Of a stretch of 21,087 nucleotides of DNA, positions 2,067 through 19,009 are shown one piece after another. How positions within the stretch are numbered: the first letter of the stretch is position 1; each line of letters begins with the position of its first letter. The stretch is taken from positions 1-21,087 of the IMG/VR virus record IMGVR_UViG_3300033151_000479; one strand, given 5' to 3'. A program made the position numbers and the translations under genes. The notes under the pieces were generated by a model that saw nothing but the letters and a program-made list of their open reading frames with translations, searched no databases and was not told the origin of the DNA. The DNA is from a virus.

Positions 2067-3191
2067 ATGCTAAGACTCAGCTTCCCAGTATTCTGGGCAA
2101 AGAAGGAGCAGGACATGCACAGGTTTACTACTTTGCACTGCCTTGAAGAATCAGATAAGTTTACTTTTGTTTTCAAGAGCAGGGAAGAATGGGAATATTA
2201 CACAGTTATCATGCGTGAAGATATTGTTGCGTTCTCACAATATTCTGGCATGAGCATGGATGATACCATAGAACAGTTCAGGATAAATTATTGCAGTAAC
2301 ACTCTGCCGCTTGAACCAAGTGATACCAAAAAGATACCTGAACTTACTGGACCGGTTGATGAAGAAGATTACTATGAGGAAGGTGATGATGAGTACCTCA
2401 AGCTCAGCCTTAGCAAAGACCTCATAATTGATGCTGGAGAAGATATTGTCAAGGAGTCAAAAGATTACGGCGAATTTCTTACCAAGACTTTCGAGTACAT
2501 GGAGCGCAAAGTGTTGCTTGCTGTTGACAAGATAGGTCTTGACAAGAGTTATACTGTCGATAAGACTTTCGGCGATTTCATGCGTAATTTGTTCAATGTA
2601 GTCAACACTGCCAACTTTGCCAAGCATATAAAGAAGTTTATCAAGGCTGATCTGGTTACCGGTTTGGTCAGTGCGGAAAGCGAGCTAAATATGGATATTG
2701 GCTGGAATGAAGAGTATCAAGCTAAATTAAATGTGTTGAGTCAGCAACAACTTTCAGGGTATTTAATAAATGGTAAGCGTTGGTATGGAATCCGAGGCAC
2801 TTCAAAGGAAGTACAATCTAAGATTATTATGACTGTGCAAAATGGTATCAAAGAGCATAAGACTGTAACTGAGATTAAAGAGGCAATCAAAAAAGATTTT
2901 ACAGTATTTAGTGATTGGCGGGCTAATCTAATCTCAAGATGTGAGACAAACAGGATTTTGAATGAGGGGTTATTGACAGCTTATAAATCTAGTGAAATGG
3001 AAGGGGGTAAGATTGTTAAGGTTTCACTTGACCATAGAACTACACCTATGTGCAAAAGAATGCACGCAAAGTATGGTAATAATCCTATCCCCCTTGATGA
3101 AGAGTTCTTGGATGATGAAACTGGCAAATCTTTTATGACTCCAGGATTCCATTATATGTGCAGAACGAGGATAGCCTTCCGACCTTCTTAG
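2067..3191 (+). CDS. Head morphogenesis protein, Mu gpF / SPP1 gp7-like
   Basis: This is a 374-residue minor head protein. The C-terminus carries the signature of the Mu F/SPP1 gp7 family: DHRTTPMCKRMH (about residues 322-333), then GFHYMCRTRIAF (about 361-372), with conserved His323, Cys329, His333, His362 and Cys365. The middle (about 205-320) is mostly helical, as in the family. The first ~110 residues, ending in an acidic stretch DEEDYYEEGDDEY, look like a separate lineage-specific N-terminal region. In known phages this protein contacts the portal and a few copies enter the procapsid, with effects on assembly or DNA ejection. It starts 2 nt after the preceding stop and is followed directly by an HNH cassette. 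Confidence 0.85.
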   Translation: MLRLSFPVFWAKKEQDMHRFTTLHCLEESDKFTFVFKSREEWEYYTVIMREDIVAFSQYSGMSMDDTIEQFRINYCSNTLPLEPSDTKKIPELTGPVDEEDYYEEGDDEYLKLSLSKDLIIDAGEDIVKESKDYGEFLTKTFEYMERKVLLAVDKIGLDKSYTVDKTFGDFMRNLFNVVNTANFAKHIKKFIKADLVTGLVSAESELNMDIGWNEEYQAKLNVLSQQQLSGYLINGKRWYGIRGTSKEVQSKIIMTVQNGIKEHKTVTEIKEAIKKDFTVFSDWRANLISRCETNRILNEGLLTAYKSSEMEGGKIVKVSLDHRTTPMCKRMHAKYGNNPIPLDEEFLDDETGKSFMTPGFHYMCRTRIAFRPS

Positions 3192-3213
3192 AAAAATGTA
3201 GGGCAACAATCAT

Positions 3214-3221
3214 TTTATATA
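3214..3221 (+). promoter_or_regulatory. TATA box of the first HNH gene
   Basis: TTTATATA sits 23 nt before the ATG at 3245, and no Shine-Dalgarno site precedes that ATG. In archaea the TATA box lies about 25 bp upstream of the transcription start, so the transcript would begin at or next to the ATG (leaderless). The second HNH gene has the same octamer with 22-nt spacing. Confidence 0.6.
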
Positions 3222-3244
3222 TGAGTTCTAATTTCTATATTATT

Positions 3245-3820
3245 ATGGTTAGATATAAAAATGGCAAAATATTAAATTGTAAATATTGTAATAAAAAGTT
3301 CTATGCCTCACTTAGCGTATTAAGGAAAGGGAGGCAATATTGTTCTCAGAAATGTTTTAAAAAAGATAAGCCAGTGTGGAATAAAGGATTGACCAAACAT
3401 AATGATTCAAGAATGATGACTATTTCTAAAAAAGCAACCGCACAACTACACAGAGAATATGCTAATGGAACAAGAGATAAATCTGCAATAATCAAGAAAG
3501 CAATTGAGGCAAGAATGAAACAAGGATTAAAAAAGTTCAAGACCAACCCCTCATTTATGATTAATTCGGAAGGATACTTAAAAATATATATTCCAGTTTT
3601 AATAGGTCATGGTTGGCAGTTCTATCATCATTATGTTTGGGAACAAGCAGGTAAATCAATTCCTAACGGTTACATTTTGCATCATATTAATGGAAACAAA
3701 GTAGATAATAGGATTGAGAATTTACAATTAATGAATCGAAGTGAACATATCTCTTTACATTCTAAGGGAAAGAAATATGTAAATGGAAAACGAGAGGAAT
3801 GCAAGCAGAATTTACCATAA
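3245..3820 (+). CDS. HNH homing-type endonuclease (first copy)
   Basis: This 191-residue protein has an N-terminal Cys4 zinc ribbon (Cys12, Cys15, Cys33, Cys37), a basic middle and a C-terminal HNH nuclease core. The core shows HHYVWEQAG (128-136), the metal and catalytic pair His146-His147 in YILHHINGNKVDN, and the helix IENLQLMNRSEH, typical of phage group HNH nucleases. The start at 3245 is chosen because TTTATATA lies 23 nt upstream (leaderless). The open frame extends back to 3158 inside the head morphogenesis gene, but that part is not nuclease-like. Its sequence is visibly more A+T-rich than the neighbours, consistent with a mobile insertion. It interrupts no gene and probably nicks cognate DNA lacking the insertion to spread itself. 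Confidence 0.85.
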   Translation: MVRYKNGKILNCKYCNKKFYASLSVLRKGRQYCSQKCFKKDKPVWNKGLTKHNDSRMMTISKKATAQLHREYANGTRDKSAIIKKAIEARMKQGLKKFKTNPSFMINSEGYLKIYIPVLIGHGWQFYHHYVWEQAGKSIPNGYILHHINGNKVDNRIENLQLMNRSEHISLHSKGKKYVNGKREECKQNLP

Positions 3821-7303: not shown

Positions 7304-7804
7304 ATGACAGACTTATTTGACGCATTGGAGCGGATGGGAGTACAAAATAATACTCTTCGGGCATTGATGAACCCTGACATGCCGCAGTACAAATCTGAAG
7401 AAATAACTGTGACTTTTGACGGTGGCACAGCTAACGCAATCGGAGACTATGACGGAACAGGCAATCCTCACACTATGTTTACTGTGACCGGAACTGTTGA
7501 GCTTTCTATCATAGCATTATGTGAAACAAGTTTGGTAGGTGCAAGCGCAACTGTTGAAATTGGGACAGCTTTAAGTACAGCTGGACTTATTGCACAAACT
7601 ACTGGCACAGACATTGACGTTAATGATATATGGCATGATGCTTCTCCTGATGCCAGCATAGAGCTTACAAGCGTAATCAAACGAAACCTAGTACATCAGG
7701 ATATTATCTTGACTGTAGCAACCGCTAACGTGACCGCTGGAGTTATAAGGTTCATAGTAAGATGGTCGCCGATAAGTGTTGACGGAAAAGTTGTTGCAGC
7801 ATAA
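7304..7804 (+). CDS. Conserved beta-sandwich virion protein, unknown role
   Basis: The protein has 166 residues. The pattern FTVTGTVELSIIALCETSL (about 63-81), ATVEIGTALSTAGLIAQTTG, DIDVNDIWHDASPDA and, at the end, VRWSPISVDGKVVAA resembles a family I recognise as recurring in uncharacterised tailed viruses from environmental sequence, usually among capsid-proximal structural genes. An N-terminal helix (TDLFDALERMGVQNNTLRALM) could be the attachment part, followed by an all-beta body. AAGGAGG lies 11 nt before the ATG. No catalytic residues are apparent. Its neighbours are the beta-helix protein upstream and the calcium-loop protein downstream. Function as a decoration or fibre-base protein is inferred. 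Confidence 0.6.
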   Translation: MTDLFDALERMGVQNNTLRALMNPDMPQYKSEEITVTFDGGTANAIGDYDGTGNPHTMFTVTGTVELSIIALCETSLVGASATVEIGTALSTAGLIAQTTGTDIDVNDIWHDASPDASIELTSVIKRNLVHQDIILTVATANVTAGVIRFIVRWSPISVDGKVVAA

Positions 7805-8194: not shown

Positions 8195-9793
8195 ATGAAA
8201 CAACCTATCCTTATTTTTATACTTGTACTCCTGTGCGCTTCAATAGTTCTAAGCTGGACTCCTTCTTCAGATATTGACCTGCGGAACTATTACCAGATAG
8301 TCAACGGAACAAATATTAGCGCAACCTCATTATATCAGGATGGTAACTCTGTTCTTGATAACACTTCAACGATTGATGCAAACTATTCAACTTATGCAAA
8401 CAGTTCCTCTTATTTAGGTGATTACAATAGTTCTGACTTTATACTTTCTTCTGAAGAGGGCAACCTTAACGTGAACCATTCTGATACTGCCGCCACCTGG
8501 GATGATGAGACCAGCCAATCTGACCTCAATGTCAACTCTTCTAATTACTGGGATAATATGGATACTGCCTCAGACCTGAACGATGCAATAACTATCCAGG
8601 GCGAGAATATCACTGGCGGAACTATTGACTTTGCCAGACTTCCTTCTCTCACAAACAGGATAATATCTCACTGGAATAATATAACTAACAAGTTTATTAC
8701 TGCTGTTGATAATATCTATATCTATATGAGCGGAACTACTGCAACACTTAATGAGACAAAGTTGAATAATACGATAGATGCAAGGAGCGATTATGATACT
8801 CGGTGGTCTGTTGACGGAACCTGGGTATATAATAATTCAGGTGACCTGAGCTTCAATACCACCAGCGGAGATTCAAGGTATAGGCAGGAATCATGGGACA
8901 ATCTGACAGGCATCCCTCACGCAACACCTTCTAATGGAGATGTTACCCATTTCAGTCTTGCTGATGAAATCTATGACTTTGTGATTGGGTTAGGATATTC
9001 TACTACTACTGGAACTGTCACAAGTGTTGCTACTGATGACACTTATTTGACTGGCGGCGCGATCACAACAACTGGCACAATATCATTTAACACTGCACTT
9101 GCAGGCACAGATTTGGCAGTCAACAGCAGCGATAATTGGGACAACTTAGGTTCACCTTCAGACATTAACGCTGGAGACATAACTGATGACGGCACTTACA
9201 GATTGCAGTCCTGGAATAACTTTACAGGCATACCTACTGCCACACCAAGTGATGGTGACACTACACATTTAAGCACTGCCGACCAGATAAGAGATTATGT
9301 TATAGGTTTAGGATATTTTGACAGTATCACAGATTTCACAGGCACGCTTACAGATGAAAAGTTCTGTACTTATGATGCTGCTTCTGGTGAAATTAATTGT
9401 ACTAATGCTGGTGCTGGCGGCGATCAATGGAGTGACCCAGTAGATTCAGACATTATCCCTGATACTGACAATTCTTATGATTTAGGCAACTCCTCATATG
9501 AGTTCAAGGATGCTTACTTTGACGGCACGGTTACAACTGATGTCCTCAGCTGTTCTGGTGCATTGACTGGAACTACTTTGGATACCGGTCAAGGCGCAAA
9601 CGAACTTTATGCTATGGATGAAGATTTAAAGACAACAGATGATGTGACCCATGATAATGTAACTGCAAGCACACAGATGACTACTGAGACTATGCTGTTT
9701 GAAGGCAACACCACAGACATCAGCATAACTGCAAACTCAACTTCGCTTATACTCAGCGCAGGAGCAAACAAATATATACTTAACATCCCCTAA
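8195..9793 (+). CDS. Secreted tail-fibre-like glycoprotein/adhesin
   Basis: The protein has 532 residues. Residues 1-20 are a signal peptide or anchor (KQPILIFILVLLCASIVLS). The rest is Asn/Ser/Thr/Asp-rich with about twenty N-x-S/T sequons, consistent with an N-glycosylated surface protein. Phage tail-fibre signatures are present: GTVTSVATDD then LTGGAITTTGTISF (273-298), and DIIPDTDNSYDLGNSSYEF (419-437). A repeat of about 36 residues occurs at 233-268 and 339-374 (SWDNLTGIP...VIGLGY and SWNNFTGIP...VIGLGY). Its ATG directly follows the previous stop and no strong ribosome site is seen. A fibre with an export signal is odd because tailed virions assemble in the cytoplasm. It may act on the host surface or in a late, membrane-linked assembly step. 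Confidence 0.6.
   Translation: MKQPILIFILVLLCASIVLSWTPSSDIDLRNYYQIVNGTNISATSLYQDGNSVLDNTSTIDANYSTYANSSSYLGDYNSSDFILSSEEGNLNVNHSDTAATWDDETSQSDLNVNSSNYWDNMDTASDLNDAITIQGENITGGTIDFARLPSLTNRIISHWNNITNKFITAVDNIYIYMSGTTATLNETKLNNTIDARSDYDTRWSVDGTWVYNNSGDLSFNTTSGDSRYRQESWDNLTGIPHATPSNGDVTHFSLADEIYDFVIGLGYSTTTGTVTSVATDDTYLTGGAITTTGTISFNTALAGTDLAVNSSDNWDNLGSPSDINAGDITDDGTYRLQSWNNFTGIPTATPSDGDTTHLSTADQIRDYVIGLGYFDSITDFTGTLTDEKFCTYDAASGEINCTNAGAGGDQWSDPVDSDIIPDTDNSYDLGNSSYEFKDAYFDGTVTTDVLSCSGALTGTTLDTGQGANELYAMDEDLKTTDDVTHDNVTASTQMTTETMLFEGNTTDISITANSTSLILSAGANKYILNIP
8891..9316 (+). repeat. Two copies of a 36-residue coding repeat
   Basis: Copy one is encoded at 8891-8998 and copy two at 9209-9316. 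They share SW-N-TGIP-ATPS-GD-TH-S-AD-I-D-VIGLGY at protein level, while the DNA has diverged at many third positions, so the duplication is old. Each copy follows a sequon-rich stretch. Confidence 0.7.
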
Positions 9794-9802
9794 GATGAAA
9801 CA

Positions 9803-10645
9803 ATGGCTAACGCAAAAGACCCAAAAGTTATCGGCGGACTGATTGTTATAGTCTTTGCTATTATAGGTTCTGCTGCTTTCTTTCCTTATTATGTTGGGAC
9901 TGACAGATGCCAGTCTGATGGTAAGTATGGAACCTGGGAACCTGTGACAGAGTTGGTCTGGTTTGATGATGAGTTCCCTGCAATTGGCAGGTACTATTGT
10001 TATATTGAATCTGAATTGACTGAAGAAGAATGTTTATACTCAGATAAATTGTTGAATTATGACGGCTGTAAATGGGGTGGTAAGACAAGCAAGAGCAAGA
10101 AAACCCTTTATGTTATGGAAGATCCCCCACTTGAAGAAGAACTTAAGAAAGGCTGGACTGAAGTAATCACTGATGTCAAGCTGAGAAAGACTGAGAAGTG
10201 CATTACAACATTCTATAATGTGACAAGTTATAAGGGGGTCAATTGTACCAATAATACTTATTCAGAGAATAATACAGATTATGTGAAATGCGATAACCTC
10301 CAGATAATCAGAGAATATAATAATACCCAATGCAAACCTATCTCTTTTGATATTAACCTGACTTCAAAAGAGTATGGTATGAATTTTAAAGATTTCGGTA
10401 ACTGTTCATATCATGCAGATGCTAAGGATAACACTAAAGTTAAGATAATCTGTGATTCATATTATGACTCTAATCAAGATGGTGTATGTCAATCAGGAGA
10501 AAGCTGCTGCACATATTATTGTGATAAAGATGAGTGTGATTTTAACGAAAAGAACTGCGAACTTAATCATTATATACAAAGAATCCAGGAAAAGATGGGG
10601 CTGAATAAGCTGCCTATCACAGAAAATGGGGCGATGGTAAAATGA
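9803..10645 (+). CDS. Membrane-anchored cysteine-rich extracellular protein
   Basis: The protein has 280 residues and no recognised family. Residues 9-30 are one transmembrane segment (VIGGLIVIVFAIIGSAAFFPYY) after a short charged N-terminus, predicting a large domain outside the cell. That domain has 16 cysteines and several N-x-S/T sequons (for example NVT 139, NCT 148, NLT 185, NCS 200), consistent with a disulphide-bonded glycoprotein. A calcium-loop-like DSNQDGVCQSGESCC lies at 222-236, next to a Cys cluster. The ATG is 9 nt after the previous stop. It belongs to the same transcription unit as the secreted fibre-like gene upstream and a 34-codon membrane ORF overlapping its stop (ATGA). 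Role unknown; envelope display is the only safe inference. Confidence 0.55.
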   Translation: MANAKDPKVIGGLIVIVFAIIGSAAFFPYYVGTDRCQSDGKYGTWEPVTELVWFDDEFPAIGRYYCYIESELTEEECLYSDKLLNYDGCKWGGKTSKSKKTLYVMEDPPLEEELKKGWTEVITDVKLRKTEKCITTFYNVTSYKGVNCTNNTYSENNTDYVKCDNLQIIREYNNTQCKPISFDINLTSKEYGMNFKDFGNCSYHADAKDNTKVKIICDSYYDSNQDGVCQSGESCCTYYCDKDECDFNEKNCELNHYIQRIQEKMGLNKLPITENGAMVK

Positions 10646-11522: not shown

Positions 11523-12262
11523 CTGTAACAACAAGTCAATCGACTTATTGCAGGATAGGTAAGACTGACTCTAACTGGACTACTCTGGGTGCAACAAGAA
11601 ACTTTACTACAACCGGTGCAACAAGCCAAGTAGGGACAGTTATTGCAGGCGATGCTCTGAGCATAGGCAACCAATTTATTTATGTAGCTTGTAATTATAG
11701 TGAGGGTGCAACTGCTGATGCAAGATTAAACATAACATACCAGCCAAGCCCATCTATTACCGTTCACACAGTAGCAAATAATTCAGTAAATCAATCTTTG
11801 TCTCCTTTGCTTAATGTGACTGTCTTAAGTGATACTGAAGCTACAATCAATGTAACATTCTATAATGCCAGCGATAATTCCCAGATATGTTTCAATGAAT
11901 CTGTGGCAAACAATAGCCAGGCTACCTGCACATGGTCAGGATTAAAATCAAATTCATCTTATACCTGGAATGTTACTGCTTATGATGGATTCAGCACAAC
12001 CTTAACAGGACTATATAACTTTAACACAAGCGAGAACCTGATGATAGGAACCACCAAAGATGCGGATGGCAATGTCATAGGCAATTCTCAGGTCATCATC
12101 ATAGACCAGTCAGATGATACTATTGCATACAAGACCACCAGCAACAGCACAGGACATTGGAGCATTGGGATAGATTATGCTGGTACTTATATGGCAGTTG
12201 GATATAATCGTTCGAATCAGACAATTTCAGGTGATGCGCAGCCTCACATAACGGTGTCATAA
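11504..12262 (+). CDS. C-terminal part of the same secreted protein (FN3-like and carboxypeptidase-regulatory-like domains)
   Basis: The open frame runs from just after a TGA at 11501-11503 to the stop at 12260-12262. It has no ATG start before its middle and no ribosome site; TTG 11798 is the first nominal start and would cut a domain. From about 11517 the peptide reads TLTVTTSQSTYCRIG..., continuing the LamG protein in frame -1. It includes an immunoglobulin-like segment, then an FN3-like domain (ATINVTFYNASDN, TWNVTAYDGFS), then a carboxypeptidase-regulatory-like beta domain (GTTKDADGNVIGNSQVIII, GHWSIGIDYAGTYMAVGY). Sequons are frequent. One extra C at 11511-11515 would fuse both parts. 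The downstream gene starts directly after this stop, so the operon is otherwise intact. Confidence 0.6.
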   Translation, partial: CSTPTLTVTTSQSTYCRIGKTDSNWTTLGATRNFTTTGATSQVGTVIAGDALSIGNQFIYVACNYSEGATADARLNITYQPSPSITVHTVANNSVNQSLSPLLNVTVLSDTEATINVTFYNASDNSQICFNESVANNSQATCTWSGLKSNSSYTWNVTAYDGFSTTLTGLYNFNTSENLMIGTTKDADGNVIGNSQVIIIDQSDDTIAYKTTSNSTGHWSIGIDYAGTYMAVGYNRSNQTISGDAQPHITVS

Positions 12263-13016: not shown

Positions 13017-14168
13017 ATGTCAAACACATACAATCCCTTTCATGAGCAGAAATTAGGGTCGGACTTATCAGGAAGCGGAACAGGAAGAACTTATGTCCTT
13101 GCCAATGATAACGCTATCCTTGCGAACATGCAGATAATGGTGGCTGAATCCTTGCTCCAGCCAGTAGTAAATTTCACATTCGATACTGCAACTAACACAA
13201 TAACATTCGTTGGCATGGTCTGGGATGATCAGGTTGTAACATTTGATTACTGGACTGAATCAACTTCAACTATCAGCGGTGACACTTACTGCACAACATT
13301 GCAGATAGCACGGTTCGGAGGCATGGGAACAGAGGTAATGCTTGAAGATTTGGGCACTGGTGACGGAGCAGAAGATTCCTATGATACAACCAATGGTAAC
13401 ATCCTGGCAGATTCTTATGTCTTGCGGTACGGTTCTGATGGCAGTAATAGCCTTAACAACCTATCTGAAGGCACAGATTACACCATATACAAAGATGACG
13501 GCAGGATCCTGCTGACTTCGGCTGGCGTGACAAAAGTTGACGGCAAGAAAATATATTTGAGTTACACTTTCTGCACAGACCTTTCAGATACAGTCCTGGC
13601 TTCATATATCATACCTTCATCAAGGGAAGTTGAGAAATTAACTCAAAACTATTACGGCACAGAAAAGACCAGCATAGAATATTTTGACGGCTATACTTCA
13701 GGCTATCCTCAGACAGACAGACCTTTTGGGAATCAGTTGGATAGTAAGCCAGAATTTGAGCTTGAAGTTCAGAGTGTTCAGTCAATTACTTCAGTTGAGT
13801 TCTTGGATAATACTGGGGCTGTGTCTGACACTGTTGATTCTGATTACATAACTCTTGACGAGGATGGCAGAGTTATATTGCAAACCAGCACGGTTCCTAA
13901 TGGGAAGCGCAACGTAAAGATTACTTATACTCATGGCTATACTGAGGTTCCTGCTCAGGTTCAGGAATTGGCTGCTTTGATTGGTGCTGTTATGAGTTTG
14001 GTTTCACTTTCCGCTGGGTCATATGATACAGTAACGAGCTATAACCTTGGCTCGTTTTCCGCAGGAATTGGGGAAGCCTATGTAAATATAAGAGAAGTAT
14101 TATCCCAAATCAATAAACGGATAGACAAGATATTAACAAATTTAGGAGGGAATTACACATGTGCGTAG
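13017..14168 (+). CDS. Head-tail connector/adaptor with three beta modules
   Basis: The protein has 383 residues. The C-terminal part (about 305-383), THGYTEVPAQVQELAALIGAVMSL followed by a helix NIREVLSQINKRIDKIL, has the pattern of HK97 gp6/SPP1 gp15-like adaptors, which dock on the portal. The first 305 residues contain three similar beta modules (about 29-78, 134-183 and 256-305) of the form DYTIYKDDGRILLT...GKKIYLSY. AGGAGG lies 16 nt before the ATG, which is longer than usual; no better start is visible. Upstream is the membrane-protein island and downstream a mobile HNH gene, then the head closure protein, the normal next gene. Placement after exported genes rather than beside the capsid gene is unusual. 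Confidence 0.7.
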   Translation: MSNTYNPFHEQKLGSDLSGSGTGRTYVLANDNAILANMQIMVAESLLQPVVNFTFDTATNTITFVGMVWDDQVVTFDYWTESTSTISGDTYCTTLQIARFGGMGTEVMLEDLGTGDGAEDSYDTTNGNILADSYVLRYGSDGSNSLNNLSEGTDYTIYKDDGRILLTSAGVTKVDGKKIYLSYTFCTDLSDTVLASYIIPSSREVEKLTQNYYGTEKTSIEYFDGYTSGYPQTDRPFGNQLDSKPEFELEVQSVQSITSVEFLDNTGAVSDTVDSDYITLDEDGRVILQTSTVPNGKRNVKITYTHGYTEVPAQVQELAALIGAVMSLVSLSAGSYDTVTSYNLGSFSAGIGEAYVNIREVLSQINKRIDKILTNLGGNYTCA

Positions 14169-14203: not shown

Positions 14204-14956
14204 ATGATATTTGAAGGAAACTGTGCAATATGTGGAACACATTTCAGAAGAAGATACCCCAAAACAAGAAAGGCACCAATATGCTGTTCGGTAAAGTGTG
14301 GAGCTATACGATTAAAAAATAAATGGCAAGACCCAGGATATAGGCAAAAGCAAAGTGATTCCCACAAAGGCAATCCAGGTTATTGGACTGGCAAAGAAAG
14401 ACTTGCAATGAGGGGCGCAGGGAATCCCAAATGGAAAGGGGGCAATCGCAGAATAATTAATGGTAGGGGGTATATATGTTTATTATTACCTAAATATCTA
14501 GGGTTAGGGGCACAGGTCTTAGAACATCGTTGGGTAATGGAAAAGCATCTTGGCAGAAAATTAAGAAAGGATGAAGATGTGCATCATATTGATGGAGTCA
14601 AGACAAATAATAAGATTGAGAATTTACAAGTGATGGGGCATTCAGAACATTTAGCATTTGAATGGAAACACCATCGCAAAAGACTAGGGCCAAAACCCAA
14701 TAATAAAATTTGTGAACTATGTAATAAAGGATTTTATCATACATTACCAAAAAGGAGATTTTGTTCAATTGAATGTTTCAAAAAGTACGTTTTCATTAAA
14801 TCAAGGAAACCACATAAAGTTATATGTCGATGGTGTGGCAAGGAATTTCATACAAAAAGATTAACTCAAAAATGTTGTTCGACAAGTTGCGGAGCAAAGA
14901 AGAGTTATAAAACAAATAGGGATAAAAATGCCGACAACCAGAAACCCACAAAGTAA
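14204..14956 (+). CDS. HNH homing-type endonuclease (second copy)
   Basis: This 250-residue protein has three Cys4 zinc-ribbon units: Cys7/10/28/32 before the nuclease core, and Cys170/173/187/191 and Cys208/211/225/229 after it. The HNH core contains EHRWVMEKHLGRKL (107-120), the pair His127-His128 in DVHHIDGVKTNN and IENLQVMGHSEH (138-149). The first copy has only one zinc ribbon, so the two are related at the core but not recent duplicates. The ATG follows a TATA box by 22 nt. The sequence is more A+T-rich than adjacent genes. Its last 29 nt overlap the head-closure gene, whose start and weak ribosome site (AGGGAT) lie inside this gene. It is likely a self-spreading element with specificity for the connector region. 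Confidence 0.85.
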   Translation: MIFEGNCAICGTHFRRRYPKTRKAPICCSVKCGAIRLKNKWQDPGYRQKQSDSHKGNPGYWTGKERLAMRGAGNPKWKGGNRRIINGRGYICLLLPKYLGLGAQVLEHRWVMEKHLGRKLRKDEDVHHIDGVKTNNKIENLQVMGHSEHLAFEWKHHRKRLGPKPNNKICELCNKGFYHTLPKRRFCSIECFKKYVFIKSRKPHKVICRWCGKEFHTKRLTQKCCSTSCGAKKSYKTNRDKNADNQKPTK

Positions 14957-16590: not shown

Positions 16591-17553
16591 ATGGTTACAA
16601 AGGAAGGATTGATCGGATTGAGGGAGCGTTGGATCATGAAGGAAGAAGCGACCTATAACACTGCTCCCTCATTGGCTACAGCATTAGTCCCTGGATATGA
16701 TATAATAATAAACCCAACATTTACTCAGGGGTTCCAGGAGATACTTAACAATGGAACTGACGTGAGGACAGTCAATTCAAAGGTTGCCGGACCGCTAGGC
16801 TTGGCATACTCTCTGGCATACTATCCCGTTGATTGGCGAATGCTGAAATATGTATTTGACATTGATTCAGAGACTGGCAGCGGAACATACACGCATACAC
16901 TTTCTGTAGGCAACACACTAAAATCTTTCACTGCCGAATGGGCTATGAGACATAGCACAGACCCAATGATATTCAAGCTCACAGGTAACGTCATAAACCA
17001 GTTCAGAATTAATTGGGCTAAGGCTACAGGTGAAGGTAATAGCGGATTCATTACCTGCACTGCTAATTGTATAGCTAAAGATTATACTACACCTGCACTC
17101 CAGGCAGGCTCTTTCACTGCATCCGGAGACCCATTCCAGTATAGGCATGCAGAGATTACTCTTGACACTTCTGAAGTTATTGAGATAAATAATGGTGAGC
17201 TTGTGTTTACTCAGGGCATGAGTCCTAACGATTTCAGGTATGCAAGTTCTTCTAATGACAGACTTATTGGCACACCTATAGCCACAGTTTTCAGAATCTC
17301 TGGCAGGATCAATGTAAATCTTTTGAGCACTACTCTCCCCAGTTTGTGGGAACTTGCAGCTGCCATAAGCGGAACTAACACTATTGTGTTCGAGCAGTCT
17401 GCCAGCAACAAGGTAACTTTTACTCTATCTGGAGTGTACTGCGAACCTGTGCCTCTTGCAGGCACTAACATTGAAGGAGTCAATACTGGTGACTTTGTGT
17501 TTACTGCCACCGGAATCACAACTATAGCCCTAGATGCAATATCTTCGTGGTGA
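16591..17553 (+). CDS. Major tail tube protein
   Basis: The 320-residue protein starts with RERWIMKEEATYNTAP, an opening typical of tail tube proteins of siphoviruses and of the 'phage tail tube' family. Beta strands alternate with short loops through the rest (YTHTLSVGNTLKSFTAEWA, INQFRINWAKA, GFITCTANCIAKDY, AEITLDT, ATVFRISGRINVNLL, TFTLSGVYCE). The Cys/Gly-poor beta content, length and place between the terminator and the G/GT chaperone genes all agree. GAGGT (16577-16581) is 9 nt before the ATG. It polymerises into the tail tube around the tape measure. The two halves each resemble a tail-tube beta unit, so an internal duplication is possible but not shown. Confidence 0.82.
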   Translation: MVTKEGLIGLRERWIMKEEATYNTAPSLATALVPGYDIIINPTFTQGFQEILNNGTDVRTVNSKVAGPLGLAYSLAYYPVDWRMLKYVFDIDSETGSGTYTHTLSVGNTLKSFTAEWAMRHSTDPMIFKLTGNVINQFRINWAKATGEGNSGFITCTANCIAKDYTTPALQAGSFTASGDPFQYRHAEITLDTSEVIEINNGELVFTQGMSPNDFRYASSSNDRLIGTPIATVFRISGRINVNLLSTTLPSLWELAAAISGTNTIVFEQSASNKVTFTLSGVYCEPVPLAGTNIEGVNTGDFVFTATGITTIALDAISSW

Positions 17554-17561
17554 TCAAGACA

Positions 17562-17948
17562 ATGGATAAATGTGATTTTTTCGTAAAAAGTGAGACTAAG
17601 GACATCGTAATAGAAAAGTTGACCTTCAAGTATAAGCCAGTAAATGCAGGCGATGAACTTGAATGGATTGAGGATTACCTGGAAGATAAGATTGAGATAG
17701 GCGAGGATGGCAAAGAGAAGGCTGTCAAAAGGACAAACTTCGGCAAGCTGTCTATGTGTAAATTGAGGAACATCCAAGAAGTGCCATTCAATACTGAAGA
17801 ACTTGAGAAATTGACTGGTGTAAACAAATCATTTAAAAATTTCACTAACCAACAGAAAGATAAACTATTTAGTAAACTCAACCCAATCATATACAATCAA
17901 CTTATAACAGCTATTGACAACATCAACAAACATAAAAAAAAAAGTTAA
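17562..17948 (+). CDS. Tail assembly chaperone, G-like part
   Basis: This is a small acidic/basic helical protein of 128 residues from ATG 17562; an upstream GTG at 17547 or 17550 would overlap the tail-tube stop. ATG 17562 is preferred because GGTGATC (17549-17555), a strong match to the archaeal 16S 3' end, lies 6 nt upstream. The beta opening (TKDIVIEKLTFKYKPVNAGDELEWIEDYL) and helical end are like gpG-type chaperones, which hold the tape measure during tail assembly. The frame ends in a lysine run encoded by ten A's and stops at TAA 17946-17948. A share of ribosomes probably shift to -1 there and continue into the T part. Confidence 0.75.
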   Translation: MDKCDFFVKSETKDIVIEKLTFKYKPVNAGDELEWIEDYLEDKIEIGEDGKEKAVKRTNFGKLSMCKLRNIQEVPFNTEELEKLTGVNKSFKNFTNQQKDKLFSKLNPIIYNQLITAIDNINKHKKKS

Positions 17949-17970
17949 TTTCAAGGATATGCTCAATATC
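17934..17970 (+). promoter_or_regulatory. Programmed -1 frameshift site (A10) with downstream stem
   Basis: Ten consecutive A's (17934-17943) contain the slippery heptamer A AAA AAA in correct zero-frame phase (17936-17942). The zero frame stops 4 nt later, while the -1 frame is open for 81 more codons. GATAT (17956-17960) and ATATC (17966-17970) form a small stem 12 nt downstream. Transcript slippage on the A run is an alternative mechanism. Confidence 0.7.
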
Positions 17971-18187
17971 GAAAGATGAAAAGCTGTACTTGGATCAAGG
18001 AGACAGGTTATATTTAGAGATGGCGAAAGCCTGGAACAGGGGCATAAGTCCGCATGAGTTCCGGAAATGCCTGACCTCAGACCTCAACTTCATAATGGAC
18101 TTCAATGATATGCAGGCAGATAGAGCCAAACAACAAGCGCATGATCAGAAGATAATTGATACAATGAACAGTTTACAGCAAAGATAG
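17942..18187 (+). CDS. Tail assembly chaperone, T-like extension (made by -1 frameshift)
   Basis: This is an 81-residue extension in frame -1 relative to the G-like gene, stopping at TAG 18185-18187. The sequence after the lysine run (LISRICSISKDEKLYLDQGD) has no start codon or ribosome site of its own; the first nominal start is TTG 17990. The remainder is helical (LYLEMAKAWNRGISPHEFRK..., DRAKQQAHDQKIIDTMNSLQ), as in T domains that recruit the tail tube protein. The fused G-T product would be 208 residues from ATG 17562. Position between tail tube and tape measure genes is the classic G/GT slot. Confidence 0.7.
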   Translation, partial: KLISRICSISKDEKLYLDQGDRLYLEMAKAWNRGISPHEFRKCLTSDLNFIMDFNDMQADRAKQQAHDQKIIDTMNSLQQR

Positions 18188-19009
18188 GTGATTCCAACCG
18201 CAGAAGTAGGAGCAATAAGTATAACAGGGGATATTGACGAGACAGGAATAGTCTCTGGGTTAGACAGGATTACTGACCAACTGAAAGAGATGGAGAACCA
18301 GTTTAATCAGGTCAATCAGCCCATGAAACGGACTGCTGGCTATGCAGCCAAACTAGGTGTTTCATTGATAGCTATTGGGGTTGCTGGTGTTGCTGCAATG
18401 ACTGCTCTTGCCACCAAATCTCCTGTGCTTGCCACAACTTTCGCAAAGATGGAGGTTTCTACCCTTAAATTATCCAATACTTTAGGTAGGTTATTGAAGC
18501 CTGCCTTTGAAGGTGTGAACAGTCTTATCATTAGTGCAAATGAATTTATGGTAAATTATGGATCAACTATTTCTAGGGTTGCAACAGGGATAGGTGATAC
18601 TTTAGGAGACTTGGGAAGTATCATCAGCGGTCAATTTTCAGAGATTGATAACATTATTCCAAAGACGGGCATGGCTGCTATGGGTGCAGCTGCTGGATTT
18701 GCATTGATGGGTCCGAGAGGATTATTTATTGGCGCAGCTTTAGGCTTGGCTGCTGCGAATGTCATAGAAGCCAATAAACAACAATTAGATATGTTGCCTG
18801 CTGAGATTGATCCAAAGATTGCTCCTGGCGCAGCTATGCTAAATATAGGTGAAGCACAAGGTGTACCTGGAAAGATGGAAGCTGCGTTCAGAGGTTCTCC
18901 AGTAGAATTTATCTATGATGCAGTCCAGGCTTTCTTCGGTCAAGTTTTAAAAGATGAGGATGTTAAGAATAGGGCTTTTGCAAGTTCTGATGGGGTAATA
19001 AGAGCATAA
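18188..19009 (+). CDS. Tail tape measure protein, short
   Basis: The protein has 273 residues from GTG 18188, which follows the T stop codon directly. An N-terminal helix (GLDRITDQLKEMENQFNQVNQ, about 20-41) is followed by hydrophobic helices (LGVSLIAIGVAGVAAMTALA, 52-71) and a Gly/Ala-rich membrane-like stretch (MAAMGAAAGFALMGPRGLFI, about 162-181; continuing GAALGLAAANV). This mix of coiled coil and glycine-zipper hydrophobic segments, placed right after G/GT, marks the tape measure, which sets tail length and can enter the host membrane at ejection. At roughly 0.15 nm per residue the tail would be about 40 nm, short for a siphovirus. No lytic domain is seen. Confidence 0.72.
   Translation: MIPTAEVGAISITGDIDETGIVSGLDRITDQLKEMENQFNQVNQPMKRTAGYAAKLGVSLIAIGVAGVAAMTALATKSPVLATTFAKMEVSTLKLSNTLGRLLKPAFEGVNSLIISANEFMVNYGSTISRVATGIGDTLGDLGSIISGQFSEIDNIIPKTGMAAMGAAAGFALMGPRGLFIGAALGLAAANVIEANKQQLDMLPAEIDPKIAPGAAMLNIGEAQGVPGKMEAAFRGSPVEFIYDAVQAFFGQVLKDEDVKNRAFASSDGVIRA

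Follow-up and report, generated by a model that had tools for sequence, protein, structure and literature searches.

A conserved all-A slippery heptamer and probable −1 ribosomal frameshifting in the tail chaperone genes of uncultured, likely archaeal viruses

How a reading frame of 81 codons that overlaps the end of another gene and has no usable start of its own comes to be translated is the question raised by the tail gene region of one IMG/VR virus record (IMGVR_UViG_3300033151_000479, 21,087 bases; herein the window, meaning the whole stretch of DNA analyzed). The structural genes of the window include those for a Mu F-like head protein, a prohead protease and an SU10-type major capsid protein. 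Downstream, all on the plus strand, lie a putative major tail (tube) protein of 320 aa (16591–17553), gene G (17562–17948; 128 aa, 15.0 kDa), an extension in the −1 frame that we call T (17942–18187; 81 codons) and a short tape-measure-like protein of 273 aa (18188–19009). Judged from sequence, the two overlapping genes very probably yield a single fused protein when ribosomes slip by −1 on the A run, and it is with high confidence that we read them as the G/GT tail chaperone pair of a long-tailed (siphovirus-like) virus, made by −1 ribosomal slippage.

In the 0-frame, G ends CAT AAA AAA AAA AGT TAA. Within this stretch an A10 run (17934–17943) contains the slippery heptamer A_AAA_AAA in X_XXY_YYZ phase (17936–17942; codons 17937–17939 and 17940–17942), and the TAA stop follows 3 nt past the heptamer (17946–17948). 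The run is the sole A10 in the whole record, for which a first-order Markov model predicts approximately 0.17 on the same strand. The −1 frame stays open for 81 codons up to a TAG stop (18185–18187), a length attained with P = 0.0036 in shuffles of the same stretch, and the remaining two frames contain seven and six stops. The preliminary description of this DNA had pointed out both the phased A run near the G stop and the 81-codon open frame, and both are borne out; it had also placed the start of G at 17547, which had to be moved, as that GTG overlaps the 3′ end of the upstream gene and the best start is ATG 17562, from which MDKCDFF aligns with the starts of relatives. Normal termination would give G alone (the putative 15.0-kDa product), and the predicted GT fusion of G and the T extension has 208 aa and 24.5 kDa, with LYLEMAK and CLTSDLNFIMDFNDMQADR as T-extension peptides. 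As T is without a start, ORF callers miss it.

The G and GT frames sit between tube and tape measure genes, as G/GT pairs do. The gene order claimed earlier thus holds, whereas the identities of the flanking genes are less firm: the tube protein has no family match in PHROGs or Pfam and is named, putatively, from gene position and conservation (55–77% identity in relatives), and the tape-measure-like protein is recognized from weak PHROG matches (phrog_167, E 9e-4) and from its place directly after T in relatives.

Scans of IMG/VR with T, tube and alignment queries retrieved 12 further distinct genomes (13 including the window; L012 and L013, alike in the G/T region, were counted once), and a single-sequence scan with G as query retrieved no relatives. 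All 12 relatives have, ahead of a tape-measure-like gene, a G-like ORF ending at a slippery heptamer, with a T-like protein in the −1 frame; identity to the window is 34–63% for G (12 aligned) and 24–51% for T. The heptamer is A_AAA_AAA in 12 of the 13 genomes and A_AAA_AAC in the other (L088), and its phase is X_XXY_YYZ in all 13. The 0-frame stop follows at a distance of 3 nt in ten genomes, 6 nt in L086, 45 nt in L089 and 0 nt in L088. The slippery site and −1 frame that the preliminary description had proposed to seek in related genomes were therefore present in every one, and neither of the counterexamples it had named, a T gene with an independent start or an A run in a different phase, was found among the 12 relatives.

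The constancy of this arrangement bears on the possibility that T has its own initiation at TTG 17990 or ATG 18020, either as a separate event or through re-initiation coupled to termination of G. Both codons do lie in the T frame, which qualifies the earlier statement that T has no start of its own, and the Met at 18020 is common to most relatives; however, it is missing in three (L086, L087 and L088), both codons fall inside the conserved domain, such that initiation at either would remove the first 16–26 residues of the conserved T part, and a separate T start would leave the invariant heptamer unexplained. We regard this explanation as very improbable.

A second alternative is slippage of RNA polymerase at the A10, with one A added to some transcripts, whose normal translation would yield GT. 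Runs of 9–11 A's are prone to polymerase slippage, nine of the 13 genomes (including the window) have runs of this length, and one extra A would give a nearly identical protein. Across the group, however, the A run varies from six (L088) and seven (L002, L017) through eight (L004), nine (L001) and ten (the window, L012, L015, L086, L087, L089, L095) to 11 (L016, in which the heptamer is taken as A_AAA_AAA at 7345, three bases before A_AAA_AAT in the same run). Polymerase slippage requires no phase and is weak on runs of six or seven A's, yet L088, with A6 (A_AAA_AAC), and L002 and L017, with A7, each keep the X_XXY_YYZ phase exactly. It is these three genomes that favor tandem slippage of tRNA-Lys and that narrow the choice between ribosome and transcript, left undecided in the preliminary description, toward the ribosome. 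Polymerase slippage as the source of GT is accordingly improbable, although it may contribute in genomes with 9–11 A's, the window included.

The same variation disposes of a third alternative, that G and T are truly one frame interrupted by a homopolymer sequencing or assembly error. A run of ten A's is error-prone in some sequencing technologies, but the −1 relation recurs in the 12 other assemblies, whose runs span 6–11 A's, and the 0-frame stop lies just past the heptamer in nearly all of them. In view of the A6 and A7 relatives, and barring an identical error in every assembly, we reject sequencing error as an explanation, its probability being negligible. Taken together, the constant heptamer phase and −1 relation, maintained despite A runs of 6–11, argue for tandem −1 slippage by the ribosome over either polymerase slippage or sequencing error.

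Conservation at the nucleotide level is centered on the heptamer, whose first six bases are invariant in all 13 genomes and whose seventh is shared by 12; nothing in the flanking 45 nt on each side is as well conserved. This invariance extends to the wobble positions, even though 0–45% of Lys codons elsewhere in G are AAG. Given the Lys codon use of each G gene, and with phylogeny ignored, the chance that the tandem codons would all be AAA is approximately 10^-3.2, a modest figure because several members use AAA almost exclusively. The frames on either side of the heptamer are constrained as well. Over eight pairs, pN/pS is 0.36–0.76 for T in the −1 frame and 0.30–0.52 for G, ratios that are rough because pS is close to saturation in several pairs, and of the frames across the T stretch only −1 lacks stops in every one of the 13 genomes (the other frames have 4–15 stops). 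These sequence comparisons indicate that G and T are both under purifying selection.

Neither G nor T has a sequence family match in PHROGs or Pfam. For the AlphaFold2 model of G (pLDDT 87.7), the hits at BFVD ranks 1–3 all bear the name tail assembly chaperone (E 1.7e-3 to 1.1e-2, TM 0.61–0.62), and the hit at rank 5 comes from an uncultured archaeal virus. Against the PDB, VIA-align places YqbN first (3klu; Z 7.9 over 98 residues), the HK97 tail assembly chaperone second (2ob9; Z 5.3 over 93 residues) and 5ir0 third (Z 4.8), Z values within the range where chance matches occur; Foldseek gave no significant match to the PDB. The HK97 protein and YqbN share the fold of the G model at a sequence identity of only 8–10%. 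The scores are middling singly, but two libraries independently rank the same family at the top, and we assign the G model to the tail assembly chaperone fold. The T model is all-helical (pLDDT 90) and has no fold match in BFVD. The assignment of the locus as a frameshifted G/GT tail chaperone, advanced in the preliminary description, is hence supported by the arrangement in 13 of 13 genomes and by the chaperone fold of the G model; the assignment of G also draws on the 12-row alignment (alignment A9), and that of T on the conserved −1 frame, its pN/pS and the lack of a start ahead of its conserved part.

We infer the slippage itself, its efficiency and the binding roles of G, GT and T along the following lines. 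Most ribosomes would translate G and terminate at TAA 17946, whereas a smaller share, holding tRNA-Lys paired to AAA in the P site as well as the A site, would slip back one base at 17936–17942 and read 81 further codons to produce GT. By analogy with phage lambda, the tape measure protein would be bound by both G and GT, and tail tube subunits would be recruited through T, with the efficiency of slippage setting the G:GT ratio. Stimulatory elements are not evident: across the 13 genomes no conserved downstream RNA stem-loop was found (mean z −0.5 to −1.25 depending on the interval, stem-loops only; z falls below −3 only in L004 and L095, for the interval +5 to +65), no Shine–Dalgarno-like stimulator upstream of the heptamer is obvious by eye, and an Rfam search across the region gave no match. 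More tentatively, and with somewhat less than even confidence, we suggest that the group is an undescribed clade of non-halophilic archaeal tailed viruses with a stimulator-free all-A site one codon before the G stop, in which the A run (perhaps together with the nearby stop) alone sets the G:GT ratio.

An archaeal host for the virus group, as proposed earlier, is probable. The capsid, portal and neck proteins are nearest to archaeal-virus proteins: the sole match of the capsid protein in the phage collection is Haloarcula hispanica tailed virus 2 (HHTV-2), and HSTV-1 and a Methanobacteriales virus have the best E-values among the matches listed for the portal of one relative. The protein encoded at 13017–14168 likewise has a Halorubrum tailed virus as its sole phage-collection match (E 8e-3). 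Shine–Dalgarno motifs precede 35% of ORFs of at least 150 aa in the group compared with 8% in Bacteroidota prophage regions (8% and 4%, respectively, when shuffled). Glycosylation at N-x-S/T is common across archaea and rare among bacteria, and in a chosen set of twelve proteins, almost all of which begin with a signal-peptide-like segment, N-x-S/T sequons number 346 against 162 for the reversed motif, whereas capsid and cytosolic controls have 53 against 59. With automatic selection the ratio is 1.96 among signal-like proteins and 1.02 among the rest; the signal-like set from Bacteroidota has 41:28, numbers too small for a good comparison. The sequon excess is possibly a signature of N-glycosylation that could be used as a sequence-based test of host domain. 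Sequon-rich secreted or membrane-anchored proteins are encoded in the window at 8195–9793, 9803–10645 and 11798–12262, and elsewhere at L008:8218–10644, L019:9894–12209, L102:1827–3365 and other loci.

In contrast to the head proteins, Shine–Dalgarno use and sequon bias, the large terminase (TerL) in three relatives has its closest counterparts in Bacteroidota phages, and that of L101 matches Bacteroides phages among others. Identity between the TerL of the relatives and Bacteroidota prophages is mostly 40–45%. A TerL scan of genome contigs returned 55 loci at 37–50% identity, almost all of them in Bacteroidota, and the host is therefore not fixed through a provirus; a scan of the same kind with the capsid protein found no relative. 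Also against an archaeal host, PCNA, which was archaea-only among 14 controls, was not found in eight related records. A Hjc-like match and an ERCC4 nuclease, each in a different relative, are weak hints only. Four related contigs derive from metagenome 3300035698, which has been used as Ace Lake, Antarctica (PMC8542988).

Several further features of these genomes were observed. Relatives with shared tail genes carry unrelated-looking terminases (L099:3099–4565 and L010:6186–7577), one of which weakly matches Halogranum virus HGTV-1 and phiCD27, others being Bacteroidota-phage-like, and from sequence the packaging genes appear to have been exchanged. In relative G010, a terminase-like ORF of 855 aa (L101:9343–11910) has LAGLIDADG/homing endonuclease matches at residues 264–345, and the insert is probably an intein. 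Two window ORFs amid the structural genes (3158–3820 and 14204–14956) have Cys pairs of zinc-finger type and HHI/DG-N-K motifs, and resemble HNH homing endonucleases on visual inspection. In G002 (L007, L008) and G003 (L009, L010), capsid genes lie near the contig end and tail genes at its start, an arrangement suggestive of near-complete, circularly permuted genomes (about 36 and 41 kb).

Among known systems, phage lambda has the same arrangement as the window: a gene between the tail tube and tape measure genes makes a short G and, through a −1 slip close to where G ends, the longer G+T. The slip site of lambda is G_GGA_AAG, unlike the A_AAA_AAA of the window, and no sequence family match connects the two. 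The distance of 3 nt from slip site to 0-frame stop is also short beside the averages of 26 nt in the SEA-PHAGES set and 36 nt in the Xu set (PMC10885494). No close isolate of the virus group was found; by major capsid protein the nearest is HHTV-2 (23% identical, E 8e-5), whose gene order of tube, two chaperones and short tape measure matches the window. Its chaperones gp47 and gp48, which occupy the position of G and T (L098 6610–7553), are annotated as separate genes, and profile comparison of its tube and chaperones with the window tube, G and T detected no similarity. Lambda and many other phages are known to use G/GT frameshifting, which has also been predicted in the haloarchaeal siphoviruses HVTV-1, HCTV-1, HCTV-2 and HCTV-5 (PMC5009743; PMC8211752), in keeping with the earlier remark that few archaeal cases are characterized; the heptamer of HCTV-2 (PMC5009743) is A_AAA_AAC, as in relative L088. 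By published descriptions rather than by sequence, the present group differs from these haloarchaeal viruses in being uncultured, low in G+C (26–40%) and equipped with all-A heptamers, and the 13-genome comparative set joins the few predicted −1 frameshifts in viruses that likely infect archaea. The group thus adds to an already known mechanism, and what is distinctive is an all-A heptamer that almost touches the G stop with no visible RNA stimulator, a conserved and simple cassette for studying slippage by the archaeal ribosome.
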